From assembly GCA_025358075.1 (NCBI GenBank), contig JANYKU010000003.1, positions 1 to 64,000 of the forward strand: a stretch of DNA of 64,000 bases, given 5' to 3'. The stretch's first letter is position 1. Each line of letters begins with the position of its first letter. This document shows, piece by piece, positions 51,943 to 64,000 of the stretch. Under the pieces are notes generated by a model that saw nothing but the letters and a program-made list of their open reading frames with translations, was not told the DNA's origin and ran no database searches. The position numbers and the translations under genes were made by a program. Source of the DNA: Ilumatobacteraceae bacterium (GTDB taxonomy: Bacteria > Actinomycetota > Acidimicrobiia > Acidimicrobiales > Ilumatobacteraceae).

Positions 51943-53054
51943 GACAGGGCCGCCTGCAACACTCGGAAGCGGTCCTCGAGCTTGGCTCGGACGACGTCGG
52001 ATTCGACGGCGAGCACGATCACGACTCCGATGACGATCGGCTGGAGGAACGCCCCGACGTTGAGCAGGTTCATGCCATTGCGGATCACGCTGATCATCAA
52101 TGCGCCGACGAGCGCATTGGCCACGGTGCCGCGGCCGCCGAGAAAGCTGGCACCACCGATGATCACCGCGGCGATCGAGTCGAGCTCGGCGAGGTTGCCC
52201 GAGGTCGGCGAGCCGGCGTTGAGCCGACCCGACGTGATGATTGCGGCGACCCCGGCCAGCACGCCACACATGACGTAGACCGAGATGAGCACCGACTTCA
52301 CGGGAATGCCAGTTCGGCGTGCTGCCTCGGGGTTGCCACCGGTCGCATAGATCCAGCGGCCCTACACGACTCGTGACAACACCGCGGCGACCACCAGCCC
52401 GATGCCGAGCACCAAGAATGCCGAATACGGCACCCAGTGGAACGAGCTGTTTCCCAGGGTGCGAACGATGCCGGGCACGCCGCGCTTGGGCCTGCCACCG
52501 GAGAACTGCAGGGCGAGTCCCCGGGCGATGCTGAGCGTGGCCAGCGTGATGATGAACGGATGGGGGAGTCGTCCCCACACGTAGACCGCGCCGTTCACGA
52601 ACCCGACGGCGGCACCGGTGGCGATCATCACGAGGATGACGACCCAACCGGAACTGCCGTGTGCGTAGGCCATCGCCCCGAGTACCGAGGCCAGCGCCAG
52701 CGTCGAGCCGACAGACAGGTCGATGCCTCGGGTGAGGATCACCAGCAGCTGGCCGATCGCCAGTACGGCGATCGCCGCGGTCTGTGACAATAAGTTGCCG
52801 GCGTTGCCCGTGGTGAGAAAGACGGGCGACAGCAACGTCATGGCGATGATCAGGCCGGCAAGGATCAACACCGGACCGAGCCGGATGACACCGAGCGCAA
52901 GGCGGAGCAACCGGTAGTTGCGTCGTTGCTGGTCGTCGGACGGGTCGGGAGATGTCAAGGATGCAATGGGCGCTGCTTCGGGAGCCGCATCGTGTGATCC
53001 GGTGGGCACGGCCTGGCCGCCGACGCTCGCCAAGTTGGACGCCAAGTTGGTCAT
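51939..53054 (-). pseudogene. Sugar ABC transporter permease (RbsC-like) interrupted by in-frame TAG
   Basis: ORF 52362..53054 part ends ...AAVLSRVV*; the same frame resumes GRWIYATGGNPEAARRTGIPVKSVLISVYVMCGVLAGVAAIITSGRLNAGSP... to 51939; stop codon at 52362-52364. Confidence 0.88.
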
Positions 53055-53123
53055 CGCGGTGTTCCCCCCGGTACCGTTCCCCACTGTCGCCGGCTGGCGA
53101 CTCGGGGTAGAGTACGCCGACAA

Positions 53124-53134
53124 ACATCTGATGT
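53124..53134. promoter_or_regulatory. Candidate GntR/FadR operator, site 1
   Basis: ACATC-T-GATGT perfect palindrome between permease and gntR. Confidence 0.6.
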
Positions 53135-53174
53135 CTAGTGGTAATTCGAGAACTCGTTGGGGAGGGTGGATTCG

Positions 53175-53858
53175 ATGGCTGCACCGCTGACCGAAGCCGC
53201 CATCGAGCGGGTCCGCCACCTCATCTCCATCGGCGACCTGGTACCCGGCCAGCGGCTGCCGCCCGAAGCGGAGCTCGCCGAGTCGCTCGGCACTAGTCGC
53301 AGCACCGTCCGTGAGGCGGTCCGCGCCCTAGTCACCGCCCGTGTCCTCGACGTCCGCCGGGGTGATGGCACCTTTGTCACCAGCCTCCGACCCGAACTGC
53401 TGTTGGCGGGCATCGGCGCCGCCGCCGACCTGCTGCAACACGGCTTCACGCTGGAGCTCGTGCAGGTCCGCCGCATCCTCGAACCGGCCGCCACCGCACT
53501 GGCGGCGACCCGCATCACCGATGCCGAGCTCGACGACCTGGAACGCTGCTTACATCAGATGTCTATCGCACCCGGTCACAACGAGTTGGTGGAGTTCGAC
53601 GAGCAGTTCCACCACATCGTCGCCAGTGCAGCCGGCAACGCCACCTTGGCATCGATGCTGCTCGGGGTTTCCAGCCGCACCACCCGCGGGCGCGCCTGGC
53701 GAGGCGTGATCGAGTCCGGGGCCATCGAGCGCACGATCTCCGAACACGCAGGCATCCTGTCTGCCTTACGCGCCCGCGACCCGTTGCTGGCAGAGGCAGC
53801 AGCACTGCTGCACGTCTCCACCACTGAGGCCTGGTTCAGGAGCGTGCTGGAAGTCTGA
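53175..53858 (+). CDS. FadR/GntR-family transcriptional regulator
   Basis: IGDLVPGQRLPPEAELAESLGTSRSTVREAVRALVTARVLDVRRGDGTFVTS; FCD-type C-terminal domain. Confidence 0.94.
   Translation: MAAPLTEAAIERVRHLISIGDLVPGQRLPPEAELAESLGTSRSTVREAVRALVTARVLDVRRGDGTFVTSLRPELLLAGIGAAADLLQHGFTLELVQVRRILEPAATALAATRITDAELDDLERCLHQMSIAPGHNELVEFDEQFHHIVASAAGNATLASMLLGVSSRTTRGRAWRGVIESGAIERTISEHAGILSALRARDPLLAEAAALLHVSTTEAWFRSVLEV
53552..53562. promoter_or_regulatory. Candidate GntR/FadR operator, site 2 (intragenic)
   Basis: ACATC-A-GATGT, same core and same TCTA-side extension as site 1. Confidence 0.4.
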
Positions 53859-53864
53859 GTCGCC

Positions 53865-54128
53865 TCATCTCCCGTTCCGGACGGGCGTGATCTCGACGGC
53901 AACCATGGTGGGGTTGATCGTGGTGCACGCAGTCGACTGGCGGCGTCGCCGTCGCACGAGAATGAGGAGGACGATGGCTGCAGCGGCGAGTCCGACCGTG
54001 CCGAACAAGGCGATACCGGCAAGCAGGCCGAGCGCGCCGAGGAAGCCGATGATCGGGCCGGCGCAGCACGCCGCGCACGCCACCGCGCCGACCCCGACGG
54101 TTGCTGCGTTCTCTTTCTTGGAGCTCAT
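53865..54128 (-). CDS. Small Cys-containing membrane protein
   Basis: 87 aa; GVGAVACAACCAGPIIGFLGALGLLAGIALFG; ATGA overlap with MerR gene. Confidence 0.75.
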   Translation of the reverse strand: MSSKKENAATVGVGAVACAACCAGPIIGFLGALGLLAGIALFGTVGLAAAAIVLLILVRRRRRQSTACTTINPTMVAVEITPVRNGR

Positions 54129-54892
54129 GCCGGCACCCCGAACAGAGTGTTCACGACGTCGAGTGCCTCCTGCGGCGAGCGGACTTCGAGTGCGACGCCG
54201 CGGGTGTCGACGGTGATGGCGAAACTGAAGAACTGACAGCAGTCCTGTTCAGCGGCGGTGAGCCCGATGAGCTCGTCGAGCGGCGTCGCCGCGCCGAACG
54301 TGACGCGCACACCGTCGTCGATCTGCTCGCGATGGACGACGTGGTGGAGCAGGGCCCGCCAGTTGTCGAGTCGCCCGCGCATCGACGCGGATGCGAGCGT
54401 GCAGGCAATCGGTACAGGTTCGTTTGTGGCCGACTTCCTGACGAGCGACACCGATTGTGATTGCGACGGTGTGTCGGCGGTGGGATCCGTGACGCAGCCG
54501 CATCGTTCGTCGCATGGGCCATCGGGTCGGTGCAGTTCGAGGGTGTTCGCCGCCTGTTGCAGTTCGCTGCTCAGGGTCATCAGCTCGACGATCTGCTGCT
54601 GCGCGCCGACGATCTTGTCGGCGACGACGGCGCGCAGCCGATCTTGCACCGGGCCGCATTGACCGCCGTCCCAGGCGAGTGTGAGATCGGCGATCTCGTC
54701 GAGCGTGCAGCCGAGTTGCTTGGCGCGGGCGATGAACGCCAGACGATCGAGCGTGCGGTCGTCGTACAGGCGGTAGCCGGCGGGGGTCCGGGTCGACTCG
54801 GGAAGCAGACCGATGCCCTCGTAGTAGCGCAGGGTCGCCGCCGTGAACCCGCTGCGCTCGGCGATGTCTTTGATCTTGTAGGCGGTGGTCAC
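54125..54892 (-). CDS. MerR-family regulator with extra C-terminal domain
   Basis: YKIKDIAERSGFTAATLRYYEGIGLLPESTRTPAGYRLYDDRTLDRLAFIARAKQLGCTLDEIADL; Cys cluster PCDERCGC; additional C-terminal region to 255 aa. Confidence 0.93.
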   Translation of the reverse strand: MTTAYKIKDIAERSGFTAATLRYYEGIGLLPESTRTPAGYRLYDDRTLDRLAFIARAKQLGCTLDEIADLTLAWDGGQCGPVQDRLRAVVADKIVGAQQQIVELMTLSSELQQAANTLELHRPDGPCDERCGCVTDPTADTPSQSQSVSLVRKSATNEPVPIACTLASASMRGRLDNWRALLHHVVHREQIDDGVRVTFGAATPLDELIGLTAAEQDCCQFFSFAITVDTRGVALEVRSPQEALDVVNTLFGVPA

Positions 54893-54905
54893 TCGCCCAG
54901 GCTAA

Positions 54906-54927
54906 ACCTTCAAGTCCACCTGAAGGT
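54906..54927. promoter_or_regulatory. MerR-type operator/promoter dyad
   Basis: accttca-agtccacc-tgaaggt perfect 7-8-7 dyad, with TTGACC-like -35 on the − strand at 54925-54930. Confidence 0.7.
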
Positions 54928-54982
54928 CAAGCGGTTTCTGTCACGACGTGCCAGGAGAGCTCGGCGCCACCCCGCTCTGGTT

Positions 54983-55336
54983 TCAGGAGCGACCGCCGGT
55001 GCGCACGTATTCACCGGCAATCCACAGACCGATGAACGACGCCATGAACAACGCCAGAAATGACTGGTGCTGAGTCGCCAAAGCGCCAACACCAAATACC
55101 AAGAACACAACGCCGCCGAGCGCCGCAGCCCACTGATGGCTGATTCGGATGGGGCCACCGATCACACGACTCGCAAGGCCCAGCACCAAGCCGAGCGCGG
55201 TGAGGTCTCGAACGTCGTCAATGATGGGCAGCCTGCCGACGGCGAGGTAGACGACGTAGAAGAAGATCGTGATATCGACCAGACATGTAGCAACGGCGTT
55301 CTTGGTGAAATACCTCATCGCGGCCCCTGTACCCAA
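54983..55336 (-). CDS. Small membrane protein, four predicted TM segments
   Basis: 117 aa MRYFTKNAVATCLVDITIFFYVVYLAVGRLP... Confidence 0.7.
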   Translation of the reverse strand: MGTGAAMRYFTKNAVATCLVDITIFFYVVYLAVGRLPIIDDVRDLTALGLVLGLASRVIGGPIRISHQWAAALGGVVFLVFGVGALATQHQSFLALFMASFIGLWIAGEYVRTGGRS

Positions 55337-55401
55337 GTTTGCACCCGGTCAGCCTTCTCCAGAGGGATGGGTAGAAAAAGAGGCAAAGGTCCTGAACAGG
55401 A

Positions 55402-56478
55402 CTACGGGAGGATCAGGTGCATGTCGCCGAACTCGTGCCAGAGATACCCCTCCTGCAGGCTCGCTGCGTACGAGGCTTCCAGCGGCGGGCGACCGGCGAC
55501 GGCTTCGAGCATCAGTAGGTGCGAGGCCTCCGGCTCGTGCCATCCCGTCAACAATCCGTCGACGACGCGCACGCCGCGCTGCGGCGTGATGACGAGGTCG
55601 GTCCAGCCGTCGACCGGGCGCACGACACCGTCATCCCCACCCGCCGTCTCGAGGGCGCGCACGACGGTCGTGCCGACCGCGATCACACGCCCACCCTCGC
55701 GCCGGGTCTCATTGACCCGCGTCGCCGTAGTTGACGAAACGCGCAGTCGCTCGGGATAGGGAAGCTCCGTCGACTCGAGCGATGCCACACCGGTGTGCAA
55801 CACGAGCGGCGATACGCCGATGCCCTTCGCTACCAAGCGCGTGATCACCTCGGCGGTGAATGGACGACCAGCGCTCGGCATCTCTGCGCTGCCGGGCTCG
55901 GTCGCGTAGACGTTCTGGTACGCGGCGATCGGCCACGGTCGGTCGACGTAGCTGTACCTGATCGGTTGGCCGTGCACCGCCAGCCATGTGAACACCGGCT
56001 GAGGTAGTTGCAGCTGGGCGACCCATAGGCGGTTGCTCCCCAGGTACGGGGCGTCGACGATGACGCGGGCGTCGGCTGCGAGGCACAGATGAGTCGGGAC
56101 CGGACCGTCCCACCGTCGCGTGGTTCGACCGTCGATGCGCCGTGGCTCCACCACCCAACGGCCGTCATCGAGCCGGGTCGAGAGGTGGAGGACGAGCTTG
56201 CTTCCGCCGTCATCCCACGCGGTCAGCGCCGCGGGCACGACGGCCGACGTGTTGACGACCACGAGGTCTCCGGCTCGGAGAAACGTGGGAAGCATGCCGA
56301 AGGTGGTGTGCTGCAGGCGTCCGTTGGAGCGCTCGGCGACGAGCATCCTCACTGCGTCGCGCGTGAGTCCTCGCGCTTCCGGCGGTTCGGCGGCCTCGAG
56401 GCGAGGCGGAAGATCGAACGAGAGCCGACCCGAGGATCCGCCAATGTCCGCGTTCGGCGTGATCGTGACCGCACTCAC
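55402..56478 (-). CDS. QueA-like S-adenosylmethionine:tRNA ribosyltransferase-isomerase family protein
   Basis: LSFDLPPRLEAAEPPEARGLTRDAVRMLV, FLRAGDLVVVNTSAVVPA, PSAGRPFTAEVI, LVLHTGVASLE, VGTTVVRALETA. Confidence 0.88.
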   Translation of the reverse strand: MSAVTITPNADIGGSSGRLSFDLPPRLEAAEPPEARGLTRDAVRMLVAERSNGRLQHTTFGMLPTFLRAGDLVVVNTSAVVPAALTAWDDGGSKLVLHLSTRLDDGRWVVEPRRIDGRTTRRWDGPVPTHLCLAADARVIVDAPYLGSNRLWVAQLQLPQPVFTWLAVHGQPIRYSYVDRPWPIAAYQNVYATEPGSAEMPSAGRPFTAEVITRLVAKGIGVSPLVLHTGVASLESTELPYPERLRVSSTTATRVNETRREGGRVIAVGTTVVRALETAGGDDGVVRPVDGWTDLVITPQRGVRVVDGLLTGWHEPEASHLLMLEAVAGRPPLEASYAASLQEGYLWHEFGDMHLILP

Positions 56479-57179
56479 GGCTCGAACTCCATCACGTCTG
56501 CGGCGCGGAACCTGCCGCTGGGCGGAGAGTTTCGTAGCAACCGTCGCAGGCCCGGCACGACGGTTTCGGGAAGCGGTCGGTCGGAGATGTCTTCGCCCGG
56601 GAATGCGGCCTGGTGCATCGCCGTGCGCATGTCGCCGGGGTCGAACCAGTACACCCGCAGCAGTGGCTCCTCGGCAGCCAGCACGTTCGACAACTGCTCG
56701 AGTGCAGCTTTCGACGAGCCGTAGCCGCCCCACCCCGCGTAGCCCTCGACGGCAGCGTCGGAGGTGATGTCGACCACCGTGCCGCCGTTCGCACGGAGCA
56801 TCGGCAGTGCCGCCTGAATGAGAGCCAGCGGGGCGATCACGTTGACCGCGAGAACGCCTTCGAACTCGTCGAGCGGATAGTCGGCGAGCGTCGGCTGCGG
56901 TGATGGTCCGAGAACGCTCGCGTTGTTGACGAGCAGGTCGAGCCGGCCCAGTCCTGCGACTGCATCGAGCAACGCGACACGGTGTCGTCGATCGGCGACG
57001 TCACCGGCGATCGCGTGCACCTCGCCGCCTGCAGGCACCGAACGAAGCGTGAAGGCCGCGTCGTTCAACGCGGACTCGTCGCGGCCGTCGATCACAACGT
57101 TCCATCCGTCTTCGACCAGGCTCGTCGCCAAGGCCAGACCCAAACCTCGAGAGCCCCCGGTGATCAATGCTGTCTGCAT
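56475..57179 (-). CDS. SDR family oxidoreductase
   Basis: ALITGGSRGLGLALATSLVEDGWNVVIDGRDE; NNASVLGP; YGSSKAALEQL. Confidence 0.9.
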   Translation of the reverse strand: MQTALITGGSRGLGLALATSLVEDGWNVVIDGRDESALNDAAFTLRSVPAGGEVHAIAGDVADRRHRVALLDAVAGLGRLDLLVNNASVLGPSPQPTLADYPLDEFEGVLAVNVIAPLALIQAALPMLRANGGTVVDITSDAAVEGYAGWGGYGSSKAALEQLSNVLAAEEPLLRVYWFDPGDMRTAMHQAAFPGEDISDRPLPETVVPGLRRLLRNSPPSGRFRAADVMEFEP

Positions 57180-57228
57180 GATGATCCTTCCTCGTCGCCG
57201 GCGCCGTTCGGCGCGGTCATTTGGCCAT

Positions 57229-57252
57229 TAAAGCAAGTAATGGCTTGCTTTA
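57229..57252. promoter_or_regulatory. Operator-like 24-bp perfect inverted repeat
   Basis: taaagcaag-taatgg-cttgcttta between SDR and kdpD. Confidence 0.65.
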
Positions 57253-59783
57253 TTCCGCGTCGGGAACAAATTCTCCGATCGCTGGTGGGCAATACTGCGC
57301 TCGTGGAACGAGGCCGGTTGCGGGTGTACCTGGGCGCAGCTCCCGGTGTCGGCAAGACCCACGCGATGCTCGATGAGGGTGTGCGGCGACGCGATCGGGG
57401 AACCGATGTCGTGATCGGGCTGGTCGACACGACCGGTCGCCCCCTGCTCGGCCTGCTCGCGGAGAAGTTGGAGCACGTGCCCACGCGGCTCGGCATCGGC
57501 GGTGTTGCCGAGCTCGACACGAACGCGGTGCGTTTGCGTCGCCCCGACCTCGTGCTCGTCGACGACCTCGCCCATCGCATCGACGATGCCCATAGCCGGT
57601 GGGAAGGCGTCGAGGAACTGCTCGCCGACGGCATCAACGTGCTCACGACCGTCGACATCTCCAACATGGAGTCGCTCGGCGACATCGTTACCGGCATCAC
57701 CGGGGCTGTGCCCGACGAGACCGTCCCAGATGTGATGGTTCGCACAGCAGCACAGATCGAACTGGTGGACATGAGCCCGGAGGCGCTGCGGCGTCGGCTT
57801 GCCCACGGGCATGTGTTTCCGCCCGAACGGGTGGACGCCGCCCTCGCCAACCTGTTCCGCCCGCAAGTGCTCGGAGCGCTCCGGCAGCTGGCCCTGTTGT
57901 GGGTCGCCGACCGCGTCGAGGAGCAGCTCGCACGAGAGCTTTCGCCCAGCGGCACGGACGAGACGCGTGACGTTCGCGAGCGGGTGGTGGTGGCGCTCAG
58001 TGGCGAGGGTGGTGATCATCTCGTGCGCCGTGCCGCCCGTCTCGCCGGGCGCACGGGCGCGCAGCTCGTCGGTGTGCATGTGGTGAGCCCCGATCGACAC
58101 CCTGGCCCCGACCTCGAACGGCAGCGGCGCTTGCTGACCGGTCTCGGCGGCGCGTATCGGGAGATCGTCGGCGACGATGTGGCCGAGGCACTCGCCGCGT
58201 TTGCCCGCGTCGAGCAGGCCACGCAGATCGTGCTCGGGGCGCGTCCAGGAGGGTCGCGATCGCGGCGGAGAACCTCGGTGGTCGGTGCCCTGGTCGGCCG
58301 CATTGCTGCTGCCGACATCCACGTCGTCGCCACCGATGCCTCGTTGGCGCTGCGTCGACTCCTCCCGTCACGTCCGGCGCGATCGGCCCGACCGCCCAGG
58401 CAAACGTTGCTGGCGTGGATGCTTTGCCTGCTGGCTCCTCCCGTGCTCACCATCGTGTTGGTGCCGCTTCGCTCGCACGTGTCGGTCGGGTCGGCGCTCC
58501 TTCTCGATCTGTGTGTGGTGATGGGCACGGCAGCACTCGGTGGGCTTCGTCCCGGCCTGGTCGCCTCGCTGAACGCGCTCGCGCTGACGAACTGGTTCCT
58601 GACGCCACCGCTACACACCCTGGCCGTAGGCGACACGCAGAACGTCGTCGCCCTGTCGGTCTTCGTCCTCGTGACCGTGGTCGTCAGCCTTCTGGTCGAC
58701 CGTGCGGCACGCCAGTCGCGCGAAGTCGCCAACGCCAGGGCAGAGGCAGCTGCATTAGCGCGGTCGGCGGCGACACTGGTCGGTGCCCACGACCCGCTGC
58801 CCGACCTGCTCGAACAGCTACGTGCCACGTTCGGTCTCAGCGCGGCATCGGTGTTGGAACGTTCGGAGCACGGCTGGTGGCCGACACATGTATCCGGCAG
58901 TCCGGAGATCCTCGATCCCGCGGATGGGACGTCGATCGACCTAGCTGCCGACGGCAGTCTGTGCCTCGTCGTGTCCGGTGATGGGCTGCGCCCCGAACAG
59001 TTCGAGGTGTTGCGGGCCTTCGCCGATCAGTTGGCGATGGCCGTGGAAGCTCGACGTCTGCGGGCGGACGCGGCCAACGCCGATGTGCTCGCCGAGGCGG
59101 ATGCGTTACGGGCGGCACTTCTTCGCGCGGTGTCGCACGACTTCCGCACCCCCCTCGCGATCATCAAGGCCTCGGCCTCCGGCCTGCTGCACACCGAGGT
59201 CGACTTCTCCGAGTCTGACCGGCGGCTGCTGTTGCACGACATCGAAGGTGCAGCCGACAGACTTGACCGGATGGTGCGCGATCTCCTCGACATGAGCCGG
59301 CTACAAGCGGGCGCGGTCGATCTCACGTTGAGGGCGGTCGCTCTCGAGGAAGTTGTTGCGTCCGCGCTCGCCGGCGTGCCAGATGCGCACCATCGTGTCG
59401 AGGTCGACGTATCGGAGTCGCTGCCAAGAGTGTTGGCCGACGCTGCACTCCTCGAACGGGCGCTGGCGAACCTCGTGTCGAACGCCATCGCGTGGTCGCC
59501 CGAGAACGTTCCCGTCAGGGTCGTCGCCGGCCTTGTCGGCGCCTTCATCGATCTGCGCGTCATCGATCAGGGTCCGGGCGTCGCTGTCGAGTATCGCGAA
59601 CGGATCTTCGTGCCGTTCCAACGCCTCGGCGATCGTTCGAACGACGCCGGCGCCGGTCTCGGGTTGGCCATCGCCAAGGGATTCGTCGAAGCGATGGGTG
59701 CCCGGCTCGATCTCGACGACACGCCGGGTGGCGGCCTGACCCTGTCGATCCGCCTCGCAATTGCCGACGAGGCCGGCGCGTGA
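57240..59783 (+). CDS. kdpD: KdpD-like sensor histidine kinase
   Basis: RGRLRVYLGAAPGVGKTHAMLDEGVRRRDRGTDVVIGLVDTTGRP, USP-like domain, DUF4118-like TM block, H-box SHDFRTPLAIIKASASGLL, HATPase GAGLGLAIAKGFVEAMG; a GTG at 57303 is an alternative start. Confidence 0.95.
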   Translation: MACFIPRREQILRSLVGNTALVERGRLRVYLGAAPGVGKTHAMLDEGVRRRDRGTDVVIGLVDTTGRPLLGLLAEKLEHVPTRLGIGGVAELDTNAVRLRRPDLVLVDDLAHRIDDAHSRWEGVEELLADGINVLTTVDISNMESLGDIVTGITGAVPDETVPDVMVRTAAQIELVDMSPEALRRRLAHGHVFPPERVDAALANLFRPQVLGALRQLALLWVADRVEEQLARELSPSGTDETRDVRERVVVALSGEGGDHLVRRAARLAGRTGAQLVGVHVVSPDRHPGPDLERQRRLLTGLGGAYREIVGDDVAEALAAFARVEQATQIVLGARPGGSRSRRRTSVVGALVGRIAAADIHVVATDASLALRRLLPSRPARSARPPRQTLLAWMLCLLAPPVLTIVLVPLRSHVSVGSALLLDLCVVMGTAALGGLRPGLVASLNALALTNWFLTPPLHTLAVGDTQNVVALSVFVLVTVVVSLLVDRAARQSREVANARAEAAALARSAATLVGAHDPLPDLLEQLRATFGLSAASVLERSEHGWWPTHVSGSPEILDPADGTSIDLAADGSLCLVVSGDGLRPEQFEVLRAFADQLAMAVEARRLRADAANADVLAEADALRAALLRAVSHDFRTPLAIIKASASGLLHTEVDFSESDRRLLLHDIEGAADRLDRMVRDLLDMSRLQAGAVDLTLRAVALEEVVASALAGVPDAHHRVEVDVSESLPRVLADAALLERALANLVSNAIAWSPENVPVRVVAGLVGAFIDLRVIDQGPGVAVEYRERIFVPFQRLGDRSNDAGAGLGLAIAKGFVEAMGARLDLDDTPGGGLTLSIRLAIADEAGA

Positions 59784-60457
59784 AGCGAATCCTCATCGTC
59801 GACGACGACGCCCAGATCGTTCGCGCTTTGGAGATCAACCTGCGCGCCCACGGCTACGAGGTCTCCACCGCGGCAACGGGGGAGGAGGCATTGACGGCAG
59901 CCGCGGCACAGGTTCCCGACGTCGTGCTGCTCGACCTCGGCCTGCCAGGGCTCGACGGCATCGACGTCATCCGTGGACTGCGGATCTGGACGTCGACACC
60001 GATCATCGTGCTGTCGGCACGTGAGGGTGACTCCAGCAAGGTGGCCGCGCTCGATGCGGGCGCCGACGACTACGTCACCAAGCCGTTCAGCATCAGCGAG
60101 TTGCTGGCCCGGACGCGGGCGACCTTGCGACGAGCGCAGCCCGCGCCGGAGGAGCCGATCATCGAGACCGACAACCTGTCGATCGACCTCGCCAAGCAGC
60201 GGGTGAGTCGCGATGGAACGCTGGTCCACCTGACACCAACCGAATGGGCAATCGTCGCGCACCTCGCCCGGTATCCGGGCCGGCTGGTAACGCAGCGGCA
60301 ACTCCTGCAACACGTGTGGGGCCCGCAGTACGAGCACGAGACCAACTACCTCCGCGTGCACCTCGCCGCGATCCGCCGCAAACTCGAGGCCGATCCCGCA
60401 CAACCGCGCTACTTCATCACCGAACCGGGCATCGGGTACCGATTCGAGGCGTCTTAG
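59780..60457 (+). CDS. kdpE: KdpE-like OmpR-family response regulator
   Basis: RILIVDDDAQIVRALEINLRAHGYEVSTAATGEEAL; KPFSISELLARTRATLRR; GTGA overlap with kdpD. Confidence 0.95.
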   Translation: MKRILIVDDDAQIVRALEINLRAHGYEVSTAATGEEALTAAAAQVPDVVLLDLGLPGLDGIDVIRGLRIWTSTPIIVLSAREGDSSKVAALDAGADDYVTKPFSISELLARTRATLRRAQPAPEEPIIETDNLSIDLAKQRVSRDGTLVHLTPTEWAIVAHLARYPGRLVTQRQLLQHVWGPQYEHETNYLRVHLAAIRRKLEADPAQPRYFITEPGIGYRFEAS

Positions 60458-60502
60458 CGCGTTCTTAGCGCTGCGCAGATCGATCTTGGCGAGGTCTTGA
60501 CG
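60452..60502 (+). promoter_or_regulatory. Four-copy phased direct repeat TCTTrGCG, candidate KdpE operator
   Basis: tcttagcg at 60452 and 60463, tcttggcg at 60484, tcttgacg at 60495 (spacings 11, 21, 11). Confidence 0.65.
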
Positions 60503-60523
60503 GCGTGAGAGACGACCGTCGAA

Positions 60524-62914
60524 TTGACTGGAGTCGTGCTCCTCGACGACGATCCGATCCTCCGCGCGACAACCGAGCAGTCGCCCGCCGACACCGCGAC
60601 GCCGACGATTCCGGAGCCGTTCTCGTACCGCGCCAAGACGAAGTTGCTCGGCCATCCGTTGCCCAGCGAGCGCCTCGCCCACGAAACGCTCGGCAAGCCG
60701 ACGGCGCTCGCCGTCTTTGCATCGGACTGCATCTCCTCGTGCGCCTATGCGACCGAAGAGATCCTTCACGTGCTCATCCCGGTGATCGGGCTGGCCGCGT
60801 TCACGCTCGTCACCCCGATCACACTGCTGCTCCTGGTGGTGCTCGGATTCCTCATCCTCTCGTACCGCCAGACGATCAAGGCCTATCCGTCGGCAGGCGG
60901 CGCGTACATCGTGACCCGCGACAACTTCGGCCTGCTACCTGCCCAGGTTGCAGGTGTCGCGTTGCTCACCGATTACATCCTCACCGTTGCAGTCAGCACC
61001 GCCGCCGGCAGCGCGGCGCTTGCCTCGGCCTTCCCGACGCTGGCGCCGTACTCGATGTGGATCGCCATCGGGTTCGTTGGAATCATCGCCTATGGGAACC
61101 TGCGCGGCACCAAGGAATCGGGCCGGCTGTTCGCCGCGCCGACCTTCTTCTTCGTGGCGGTGATGGCCGCGCTGCTGATCACCGGTCTGATCCGACTCGT
61201 CACCGGGTCGCTTCCCGTGCAGTCGAGCCACGTGCCTGGCATGTTGGTGCAGACGCATTCGGCTTCCAACGCGATCTTCATGGGTGCCGGTCTGCTCATC
61301 TTCGCCAAGGCCTTCGCCTCTGGTGGCGCCGCCGTCACGGGTGTCGAGGCGATCAGCAATGGCGTGCCGGCCTTCCGCCCGCCCGCGTGGAGGAACGCGC
61401 GCGACACGCTGGTGTACATGGGCGCGCTCCTGGGCGTGATGTTCCTCGGGCTCTCGTTCCTGGCATCGAAGGTGCATGCAACGCCGTACGCCGCCGGCAC
61501 GCCGACGGTGATCTCGCAGGTCGGCAAGCTGGTCTTCGGCCAAGGGCCGGTCGGTCATGTGATGTTCTTCGCGCTGCAGGCCGGCACGATGCTGATCCTG
61601 GTCCTCGCGGCCAACACCAGCTTCGCCGATTTCCCGCGGCTGGCCTCGTTCCACGCCGGCGACAACTTCATGCCTCGTCAGTTCATGGTTCGCGGGCATC
61701 GACTCGTGTTCTCCAACGGAATCGTCTTCCTCTCCATCGCTGCGGCGGTGACGCTGCTCGGTACCGGCGGCGAGGTCAGCCGTTTGATCCCGCTGTACGC
61801 GATCGGCGTGTTCACGAGTTTCACGCTGTCGCAGGCCGGCATGACCAAGCACCACTTCCGGCTCAAGGAGCAGGGCTGGAAGATGGGCGCCTGGATCAAC
61901 GGCATCGGCGCGGTGCTGTCGTTCCTCGTGCTGATCATCGTCGCCAGCATGAAGTTCATGGAGGGCGCGTGGGTGATCATGCTCATCGTCCCGATCATGG
62001 TCTTCGGGCTGGTGCGCCTGAACAAGGCCTACGAGGTCGAAAGCCACGAGCTTCACGAGGATGCCAAGACGGCGGCGGAAACCCGTCCGTTGCGCCGGCA
62101 TGCAGTCGTGGTGCTCGTCGACAACCTCGATGTTGCCACCGCCAGAGCGATGCAATATGCCAAGACTCTCGCCCCCGACGATCTGCGCGCCGTGCACTTC
62201 GACCTCGATGCGTGGAAGACCGACCAGCTGACCGAAGCGTGGCGGAACCTCGGCTTCTCCAGGTTCCCGCTCGACATCATCGAGTGCCCTGATCGGAGGA
62301 TTGCTCGCGGTGCGTTGGAGTTGGCGGTGAGCCTCACCGCCGACAACGAAACCGAGCTGACGATGCTGATCCCTCGTCGCGAGTACTCGAAGATGTGGCA
62401 TCGGCTGCTGCACGACCATTCATCGAACGGCATCGCTGCCGCGCTGGCCAATCAACGGCACTGCAACGTCACGATCGTGCCGTACCTGCTCGGTGCGAAG
62501 CAGGCAGGTCAACAGCCCGAAGCGCCGACACGCGCCGCGTCCCGCCCCGCGGCCACGTCGAAACCTCCTCGTGCCGCGCCCGTCGTAGCCGACGATCATG
62601 TCGCCGATCTACCAGCGGACCGCACGCGCATCGCCGCGATGAAGGGCCGCACACAGACAACCGTGGCCGGACGCGTCCGCGCCATTCGCGTGCAGCCCTG
62701 GGCCGGCAACCCCGCACTCGAGCTCAACCTCGCCGACGAGACCGGAAGCATCACCGTGGTGTTCACCGGTCGACGCGAAATCGGCGGTGTGCGTCTCGGC
62801 ACGATCATGCAAGTGACCGGTGTGTCGGGCGAGCACCATCGCATCCGGGCCATCATGAATCCGGAGTATCGACTGATCTCCAGCCCAGCCGAGCCGACGA
62901 GCCCGCAGCACTAA
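60524..62914 (+). CDS. APC-superfamily KimA-like (potassium) transporter with C-terminal OB-fold domain
   Basis: KLLGHPLPSERLAHETLGKPTALAVFASDCISSCAYATEEIL; TIKAYPSAGGAYIVTRDNFG; C-terminal TQTTVAGRVRAIRVQPWAGNPALELNLADETGSITVVFTGRREIGGVRLGTIMQVTGVSGEHHRIRAIMNPEYRLI; start codon uncertain (TTG 60524 or GTG 60536). Confidence 0.9.
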   Translation: MTGVVLLDDDPILRATTEQSPADTATPTIPEPFSYRAKTKLLGHPLPSERLAHETLGKPTALAVFASDCISSCAYATEEILHVLIPVIGLAAFTLVTPITLLLLVVLGFLILSYRQTIKAYPSAGGAYIVTRDNFGLLPAQVAGVALLTDYILTVAVSTAAGSAALASAFPTLAPYSMWIAIGFVGIIAYGNLRGTKESGRLFAAPTFFFVAVMAALLITGLIRLVTGSLPVQSSHVPGMLVQTHSASNAIFMGAGLLIFAKAFASGGAAVTGVEAISNGVPAFRPPAWRNARDTLVYMGALLGVMFLGLSFLASKVHATPYAAGTPTVISQVGKLVFGQGPVGHVMFFALQAGTMLILVLAANTSFADFPRLASFHAGDNFMPRQFMVRGHRLVFSNGIVFLSIAAAVTLLGTGGEVSRLIPLYAIGVFTSFTLSQAGMTKHHFRLKEQGWKMGAWINGIGAVLSFLVLIIVASMKFMEGAWVIMLIVPIMVFGLVRLNKAYEVESHELHEDAKTAAETRPLRRHAVVVLVDNLDVATARAMQYAKTLAPDDLRAVHFDLDAWKTDQLTEAWRNLGFSRFPLDIIECPDRRIARGALELAVSLTADNETELTMLIPRREYSKMWHRLLHDHSSNGIAAALANQRHCNVTIVPYLLGAKQAGQQPEAPTRAASRPAATSKPPRAAPVVADDHVADLPADRTRIAAMKGRTQTTVAGRVRAIRVQPWAGNPALELNLADETGSITVVFTGRREIGGVRLGTIMQVTGVSGEHHRIRAIMNPEYRLISSPAEPTSPQH

Positions 62915-62951
62915 CGGGCTGACGACCCGTCCGATGTGATCGACTGGCGAG

Positions 62952-63326
62952 ATGAGCGAGCGACATTCGATCGACGAGATCCTTGGCAGGGCGCGAACGA
63001 CCCTCGATCGTGTGCCACCCGAGCGCCTTGCAGACGAGCAGGCGCACGGAGCGCTGGTCGTCGACATCCGCCCTGTCGAGCAACGGCAACGTGACGGGCA
63101 GCTGCCGGGTGCAGTCGTCATCGACCGAAACGTCCTCGAATGGCGGCTCGACCCCAGCAGCGAGAACCGCATCGACCAAGTCACTGGGTACGACCTGCGG
63201 GTCGTGGTCGTGTGCAACGAGGGCTACAGCTCCAGCCTCGCCGCGGCCACGCTGCAGGAGCTAGGGCTCCACCGGGCCACCGACCTGATCGGCGGCTTCC
63301 AGGCCTGGCTGGCGATCGCGAAGTGA
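62952..63326 (+). CDS. Rhodanese-like domain protein
   Basis: GALVVDIRPVEQRQRDGQLPGAVVIDRNVLEWRLDP...VVVCNEGYSSSLAAATLQELGLHRATDLIGGFQAW. Confidence 0.92.
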   Translation: MSERHSIDEILGRARTTLDRVPPERLADEQAHGALVVDIRPVEQRQRDGQLPGAVVIDRNVLEWRLDPSSENRIDQVTGYDLRVVVVCNEGYSSSLAAATLQELGLHRATDLIGGFQAWLAIAK

Positions 63327-63336
63327 TCACGTCGAC

Positions 63337-64000
63337 TTATTGTGCGGGTTGGGCGTCCGCTCGTTGAAGCACGATGTCGACCTGCGGATGCGCGGCGGTT
63401 CGCCGATAGACGAGTCGACCAGGTAGGGCCTCGACAAGACGTCGCGCCAGGGGGATGCCGAGTCCGTGCGCAGCCGTACCGTCGGCGTCCAAGATCGTCT
63501 CAGGCGAGGCAGAGGGCCCGAATCCGGGCCCCTCGTCGGCCACGGTGATGGTCACCGCGTCGGCCGTGACGTGGTGATCGATGCGCACCTCGCCGGCGCC
63601 ATGGGCCAGCGCATTGTCGAGGAGCACGTCGAGTGCGTGGCGGAGCATCACGGGGTTTCCGGTGACGGCCGGTAGATCGTGTGCGTCGGCGATCGCGAGT
63701 GGCCGGCCCGCAATCGCGAGACGGCCGTGCCACGTAATGCGGAGTTGGTCGAACAGCTGGGTGAGCGAAATGGTCGCTCCGTCGATCGGTGATGTGCGGG
63801 CGATGGCGAGGAGCTCGGTGACGGTGCTCTCGAGGCGATCGATGTCGTCGAGCGACTCGCGCAGCACCTCCGTGTGATCGGGCCGAGGAAACTCGAGCTC
63901 GGTTTCGAGTGCGGCGCGCAGCCCGGCCAGCGGTGTGCGGAGTTGGTGAGACGCATCCGCACTGAACGCGCGTTCCCTCGTGACGAGATCGTCGAGCCGG
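63337..64000 (-). CDS. Sensor histidine kinase, C-terminal part (truncated by window end)
   Basis: H-box FSADASHQLRTPLAGLRAALE read from the − strand at the window edge, HATPase motifs NALAHGAGEVRI, VADEGPGFG, GLGIPLARRLVEALPG. Confidence 0.9.
   Translation of the reverse strand, partial: RLDDLVTRERAFSADASHQLRTPLAGLRAALETELEFPRPDHTEVLRESLDDIDRLESTVTELLAIARTSPIDGATISLTQLFDQLRITWHGRLAIAGRPLAIADAHDLPAVTGNPVMLRHALDVLLDNALAHGAGEVRIDHHVTADAVTITVADEGPGFGPSASPETILDADGTAAHGLGIPLARRLVEALPGRLVYRRTAAHPQVDIVLQRADAQPAQ

Follow-up and report, generated by a model that had tools for sequence, protein, structure and literature searches.

The window, i.e., the 64,000 nucleotides of an Ilumatobacteraceae contig that we analyzed, probably carries a potassium-uptake module in which KdpE controls a KimA-type K+/H+ symporter ending in a regulatory OB-fold tail. 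KdpDE is commonly viewed as devoted to regulating KdpFABC alone, whereas most of what is known of KimA concerns an importer of Firmicutes under c-di-AMP and riboswitch control. The parts of the module are known and their conserved arrangement is new. In the open-access literature searched (subscription papers were outside the scope), we found no prior report of the KdpE-kimA, KimA-OB, or KimA-TrkA links. We computed the gene order, the domain make-up, the conservation of transport residues, the operator layout, and the recurrence of the linkage; transport activity, KdpE binding, and OB function are what we infer. The features are collected in Table 1.

Table 1. Features of the candidate potassium-uptake module and its downstream neighbors (positions in the window).
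Feature	Position	Strand	Basis or remark
kdpD-like sensor kinase, 847 aa	57240..59783	+	Pfam KdpD, DUF4118, HisKA, HATPase_c
kdpE-like OmpR-family response regulator	59780..60457	+	Pfam Response_reg and Trans_reg_C
Candidate KdpE site 1, CTTAGCG-N4-CTTAGCG	60453..60470	+	Perfect dimer, conserved in relatives
Candidate KdpE site 2, CTTGGCG-N4-CTTGACG	60485..60502	+	Perfect dimer, 32 bp after site 1
kimA-OB CDS	60536..62914	+	GTG start by homology; TTG 60524 gives the longest frame
KimA transmembrane domain, residues 37-518	60632..62077	+	6s3k alignment, model helices
KimA-type alpha/beta cytosolic domain, residues 525-655	62096..62488	+	6s3k alignment, model
Variable, poorly ordered linker	62489..62638	+	Alignment A1; pLDDT <50 at 659-691
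OB-fold domain, residues 711-786	62654..62881	+	Pfam, AlphaFold, Foldseek
Rhodanese	62952-63326	+	
Histidine kinase	from 63337	-	

The initial annotation described complete, overlapping kdpD and kdpE genes, and both were recovered. The kdpD frame is open from 56982 and starts with an ATG, and kdpE starts with a GTG, the two genes sharing the four nucleotides GTGA. In addition to the domains of Table 1, Pfam gives a weak Usp match in KdpD, whose Walker A (GAAPGVGKT) and H-box are both intact and whose KdpD domain (PF02702) scores about 223.5-227.6 bits. The best NCBIfam models of the pair are KdpD and KdpE, with both scores below the model cut-offs. The pair has the composition of a Kdp two-component system, a KdpD sensor with HisKA and HATPase domains together with an OmpR-type KdpE. 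The latter is 69-72% identical to the KdpE adjoining KimA-OB in the relatives G020 and G008. A perfect 8-bp inverted repeat, AAAGCAAG-taatgg-CTTGCTTT, spans the kdpD start (57230-57251) and is a possible hairpin or regulator site. In the KimA-linked KdpD of G008 (L040:10731-13280), both Walker motifs are degenerate (A, GCAPGAGTT; B, VDRLAF), and its N-terminal nucleotide site may have been lost.

The claim that no kdpFABC is in view holds for the window, where kdpDE has no adjacent kdpFABC and is followed by kimA-OB, but not for the genome. On another contig (C22), kdpA (C22:10212-11897) is followed by kdpB, kdpC, and kdpD, and the kdpDs found at C22:14670 and C22:5599 bring the total to three with the window copy. 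The apparent lack of kdpFABC is thus an effect of the window edge. The KdpD-domain score is 227.6 bits for the window copy versus 325-329 for those on C22; as kdpFABC has its own kdpDs there and the window score is lower, the window KdpDE is an extra, more divergent copy. On C22 (loci L002 and L003), we saw no kdpE adjoining the kdpD that follows kdpFABC, while upstream, in divergent orientation, both genes of a kdpDE pair are present. That KimA substitutes for a missing KdpFABC is ruled out by the presence of kdpFABC, with its own kdpDE, on C22. As evidence against its proposal, the initial annotation had named a kdpFABC operon that has a KdpE-type site and adjoins a different kdpDE. Such an arrangement largely exists in this genome, and it removes only the idea of a replacement.

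The permease was listed as an ORF from TTG 60524, 66 nt past the kdpE stop as initially annotated, to the stop at 62914. GTG 60536 (MLLDDDP) is the likelier start, because the N-termini of homologs align there (MLLERE in L011, MVLSEKE in L010 and L039); residue numbers of KimA-OB count from TTG 60524. A phmmer comparison with the solved KimA structure (6s3k) gave E = 7.7e-114 over residues 37-654, with about 40% identity. Ten residues of B. subtilis KimA with previously described roles in K+/H+ transport (PMC6994465) were compared, namely D36, Y43, D117, Y118, T121, S125, T230, E233, N237, and Y377; all are identical in the window protein. This agrees with the predicted K+ importer of the initial annotation and makes a KimA-type K+/H+ symporter well supported at the level of sequence. 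The full-length model is of limited confidence (pLDDT 73.7, pTM 0.60) and shows, in this order, a helical transmembrane part, a five-stranded alpha/beta domain (525-655), the linker (659-691), and a beta domain (711-786). The rhodanese and the kinase reported downstream are both present; we rejected them as parts of the module, as neither turned up at those homologous loci that we inspected. A defense system was also discarded, with no PADLOC match.

The gap between kdpE and kimA contains four CTTRRCG half-sites at offsets 0/11/32/43 (60453/60464 and 60485/60496), the last of which could overlap a -35 element. E. coli KdpE recognizes TTTATA-N5-TTTACA, with an 11-bp period and the first two T invariant (PMC3264566). 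A candidate direct-repeat operator with this period is found in the window, with a half-site unlike that of E. coli. Perfect CTTRRCG-N4-CTTRRCG dimers occur five times in the 4.44-Mb genome: two in this gap, one around 50 nt upstream of a KimA paralog on contig C90, in the opposite orientation, and two (C126 and C189) with no obvious K+ context. The stricter pattern CTTAGCGNNTTCTTAGCGC occurs exactly twice in the genome, each time upstream of a KimA gene. With up to one mismatch, the dimer has 24 matches genome-wide versus 44 for the reversed control, and since the looser motif does not exceed its control, the evidence is limited to perfect dimers and to upstream regions.

The same layout was found in relatives. 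Offsets 0/11/32/43 are shared by the window, G020, and G008, while L084, L085, and L086 have 0/11/32 and G042 has 0/11/31/42; the spacing recurs even where the gene upstream of kimA is not kdpE. When one mismatch was allowed and the 300 nt preceding kimA were searched, dimers were found at 13 of the 29 Kdp-linked kimA genes versus 3 of the 76 others (p = 1.6e-6, a significance overstated by p-values that treat related loci as independent). For comparison, 8 of 3000 random 300-bp segments have such a dimer. The motif was first found in the window, which is thus not independent evidence; the relatives are independent, although some are close kin. No motif was found upstream of the KdpDE-linked kimA genes of L142, L148, and L161, nor upstream of kimA in relatives of the C90 paralog. 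The kdpFABC promoters of this genome and of G008 carry related dimers (CTTCACG/CTTGACG), 32 bp apart and on the opposite strand; the CTTCACG pattern is not unique, with four one-mismatch matches in the genome.

The association of Kdp and KimA genes recurs beyond the window. KdpDE and/or kdpFABC adjoin KimA in this genome, G008, G020, G040, and G042. The order of G040 is that of the window, G020 has kdpDE divergent from kimA-OB, G042 has kimA-OB followed by kdpABCD, and G008 has KdpD-KdpE-KimA-OB-kdpFABC-kdpD in a single direction. kdpFABC is adjacent in the related loci G008 and L084. Among 80 named loci, Kdp genes lie beside KimA in 19 and a TrkA pair does so in 30. On the KimA tree, Kdp linkage changed at least 17 times. 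The window belongs to a fully supported set of eight tree rows, with KdpDE adjoining in seven and the eighth (L042) being a cut contig. Some loci are more complex: L145, L155, L156, and L158 are potassium islands that combine KdpDE with a TrkA pair, an OB gene, and two copies of KimA, and in G041 (L043:7796-12709) KimA-OB is duplicated in tandem, both copies pointing the same way, while kdpABC and a kdpD lie close by on the opposite strand.

Two other explanations bear on the transporter and its control. The permease might be an ordinary amino-acid permease of the APC superfamily, since AA_permease_2 is its sole Pfam transporter match; this is very improbable, because KimA is its only strong solved relative, every tested K+/H+ residue is conserved, and its neighborhoods place it among K+ genes. 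Alternatively, KimA-OB might import K+ without being controlled by KdpDE; the repeats would then serve a different regulator of the OmpR family or be part of general promoter structure, and the genes would be adjacent because K+ genes cluster. The difference between the half-site and that of E. coli KdpE would fit this, as would the KdpDE-linked kimA genes lacking the motif, the one unlinked kimA carrying it (L042, on the cut contig), and the two of five perfect genomic dimers without an obvious K+ context. We nevertheless regard it as unlikely, given that motif presence follows KdpDE linkage, that dimers of a related sequence, likewise offset by 32 bp, stand before two kdpFABC operons, and that KdpE-kimA synteny is recurrent. 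The functional link proposed by the initial annotation thus gains from both the recurrent neighborhoods and the KdpE-like candidate operator. We infer that KdpE would be the protein binding the gap sites, and its predicted control of kimA-OB is fairly well supported.

The last ~75 residues of the protein were initially annotated as an OB-fold, which the structural predictions bear out for the last ~80. Pfam PF01336 matches residues 713-769 with 23.4 bits, below the cut-off of 27. The AlphaFold model built on alignment A2 (83 homologs, fused and stand-alone) has a pLDDT of 92.4 and a pTM of 0.82, shows a five-stranded barrel, and has Foldseek matches to the OB-folds of Stn1/RPA32, LysRS, RPA, and SSB. 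The sequence-profile tie to the RecG wedge domain is weak (E = 0.005). A stand-alone homolog in the same genome (C90:7087-7344) is 37% identical and scores 27.9 bits with PF01336, above the cut-off. Positions invariant across the fused set include R709, G716, D738, F747, G749, R750, G755, G759, N779, and P780. KimA and OB form a single ORF in 82 of 124 sampled sequences, which rules out an artifactual fusion, and the fusion is widespread in Acidimicrobiia and other Actinomycetota, one cultured carrier being Pseudonocardia acidicola (L137). At least six changes between fused and single forms are required on the KimA tree of 124 rows. In several related loci KimA and OB are separate genes that overlap, which suggests that they act together.

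Stand-alone OB genes near K+ transport genes, which the initial annotation described for mycobacteria, are also found in this genome. On C90, three genes follow the KimA paralog (C90:8749-10626) on its strand, first a TrkA gene that overlaps it, then a second TrkA, and then OB; no TrkA pair is found beside KimA-OB in the window. On C90 (L056:10963 onwards), this cluster is divergent from a ribosomal-protein operon apparently starting with rplC. No TrkH was found in this genome (92.7% completeness). Among 61 relatives, 6 have both KimA and TrkH, 32 only KimA, 15 only TrkH, and 8 neither (p = 1.9e-4); the two tend to exclude each other, also with one genome per family (p = 0.001). In G036, which has TrkH, we found OB-TrkA-TrkA (L194:7403-9861) with no KimA detected upstream. 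This tendency and the kimA-trkA-trkA-OB cluster suggest that, in genomes with KimA, the TrkA pairs may have it as their partner in the membrane. The mycobacterial Trk cluster presumably comprises the Rv2690c permease, ceoB, ceoC, and a nearby OB gene. In a transposon screen of M. tuberculosis, ceoB and the adjacent Rv2690c share a phenotype (PMC12216072), which fits such a partnership. We tentatively propose, as a speculative extension, an actinobacterial RCK-controlled KUP system where KimA would be the membrane subunit and two TrkA and OB its cytosolic regulators, replacing TrkH-type Trk (including mycobacterial CeoB/CeoC), with the window KimA-OB as its KdpE-controlled, stress-induced form.

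The role of the OB domain can be read in two ways. It was first proposed to be a gate sensing a ligand or nucleic acids; as such, it would be a sensor that binds nucleic acids or nucleotides and gates the transporter. The closest OB folds and profiles (RPA, Stn1, SSB, LysRS, RecG wedge) do bind nucleic acids and the family conserves a basic GRR motif, yet OB-folds in general bind many ligands, proteins included, and this family keeps few aromatics (F747), leaving the proposal possible but doubtful. The domain might instead be a protein-docking part that helps KimA contact TrkA (RCK) or its own cytosolic domain, the fusion replacing a subunit. On C90 and in many relatives, the OB gene shares a cluster with KimA and a TrkA pair. 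It overlaps KimA in several loci where the two are separate genes, and it accompanies the TrkA pair even without KimA (L194). However, no TrkA pair adjoins KimA-OB in the window and gene clustering does not demonstrate contact, so we hold docking as a plausible reading short of a probable one. In the broader sense, the most likely role of the OB domain is to tune the transporter from the cytosol, through regulation or docking.

Control of the module by c-di-AMP is possible. A diadenylate cyclase domain is encoded in the genome. The KimA pocket and cooperativity residues are known (PMC10284832), and those of the pocket compared here include R337, H579, Q581, S582, V506, and F565. The window protein has R, H, and S at the positions of R337, H579, and S582, whereas Q581 is replaced by H; several pocket residues and most cooperativity residues are changed. 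Control of kimA by a c-di-AMP riboswitch (ydaO) was discarded, since no Rfam match was found at E <= 1 across 53000-64000. The c-di-AMP-binding Usp motif of KdpD is (A/G/C)XSXSX2N(Y/F) (PMC8214093); the window reads A-L-S-G-E-G-G-D, and KdpD was rejected as a c-di-AMP sensor.

In the proposed mechanism, K+ shortage would be sensed by a KdpD/KdpE paralog distinct from those linked to kdpFABC. Phosphorylated KdpE would then act on the two tandem direct-repeat sites of the 66-nt gap and activate kimA-OB. The product would be a KimA-type K+/H+ symporter with its transmembrane and cytosolic domains, and a flexible linker would carry the OB-fold, which elsewhere is a stand-alone protein whose gene accompanies those of KimA and a TrkA pair; on this linker it could tune transport as a regulatory or docking module. 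The candidate KdpE-type operator before kimA, conserved in several genera, would join the KdpDE and KimA potassium systems. Direct evidence that the small OB genes near actinobacterial TrkA and KimA would work on K+ transport comes from the fusion of KimA and OB. Together with the exclusion of KimA and TrkH, this fusion provides a testable candidate membrane partner for TrkA pairs such as CeoB/CeoC.

The module can be compared with four known systems. Its transporter aligns with the transmembrane and cytosolic domains of B. subtilis KimA, a KUP K+/H+ symporter (PDB 6s3k, 8b70, 8b71), over residues 37-654 and keeps some of its c-di-AMP contacts, but part of the pocket is changed, a linker and an OB-fold are added, and the gene stands behind kdpDE. 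Streptomyces Vnz_27465 and Vnz_15480 are also actinobacterial KimA homologs; the study listing them gives identities to B. subtilis KimA of 39 and 42% (PMC10117811) and mentions neither an OB domain nor a KdpDE link for them. The C90 cluster resembles the presumed mycobacterial Trk cluster in that a KimA-type permease, two TrkA, and a small OB protein have neighboring genes. The window differs from both in its KimA-OB fusion and in having KdpDE as neighbors instead of TrkA. As for KdpDE/KdpFABC of E. coli, the window shares with it overlapping kdpD and kdpE homologs and a candidate operator made of an 11-bp repeat starting with TT, but differs in its target gene (kimA-OB), in its half-site (CTTRRCG instead of TTTATA/TTTACA), and in having two dimers 32 bp apart.
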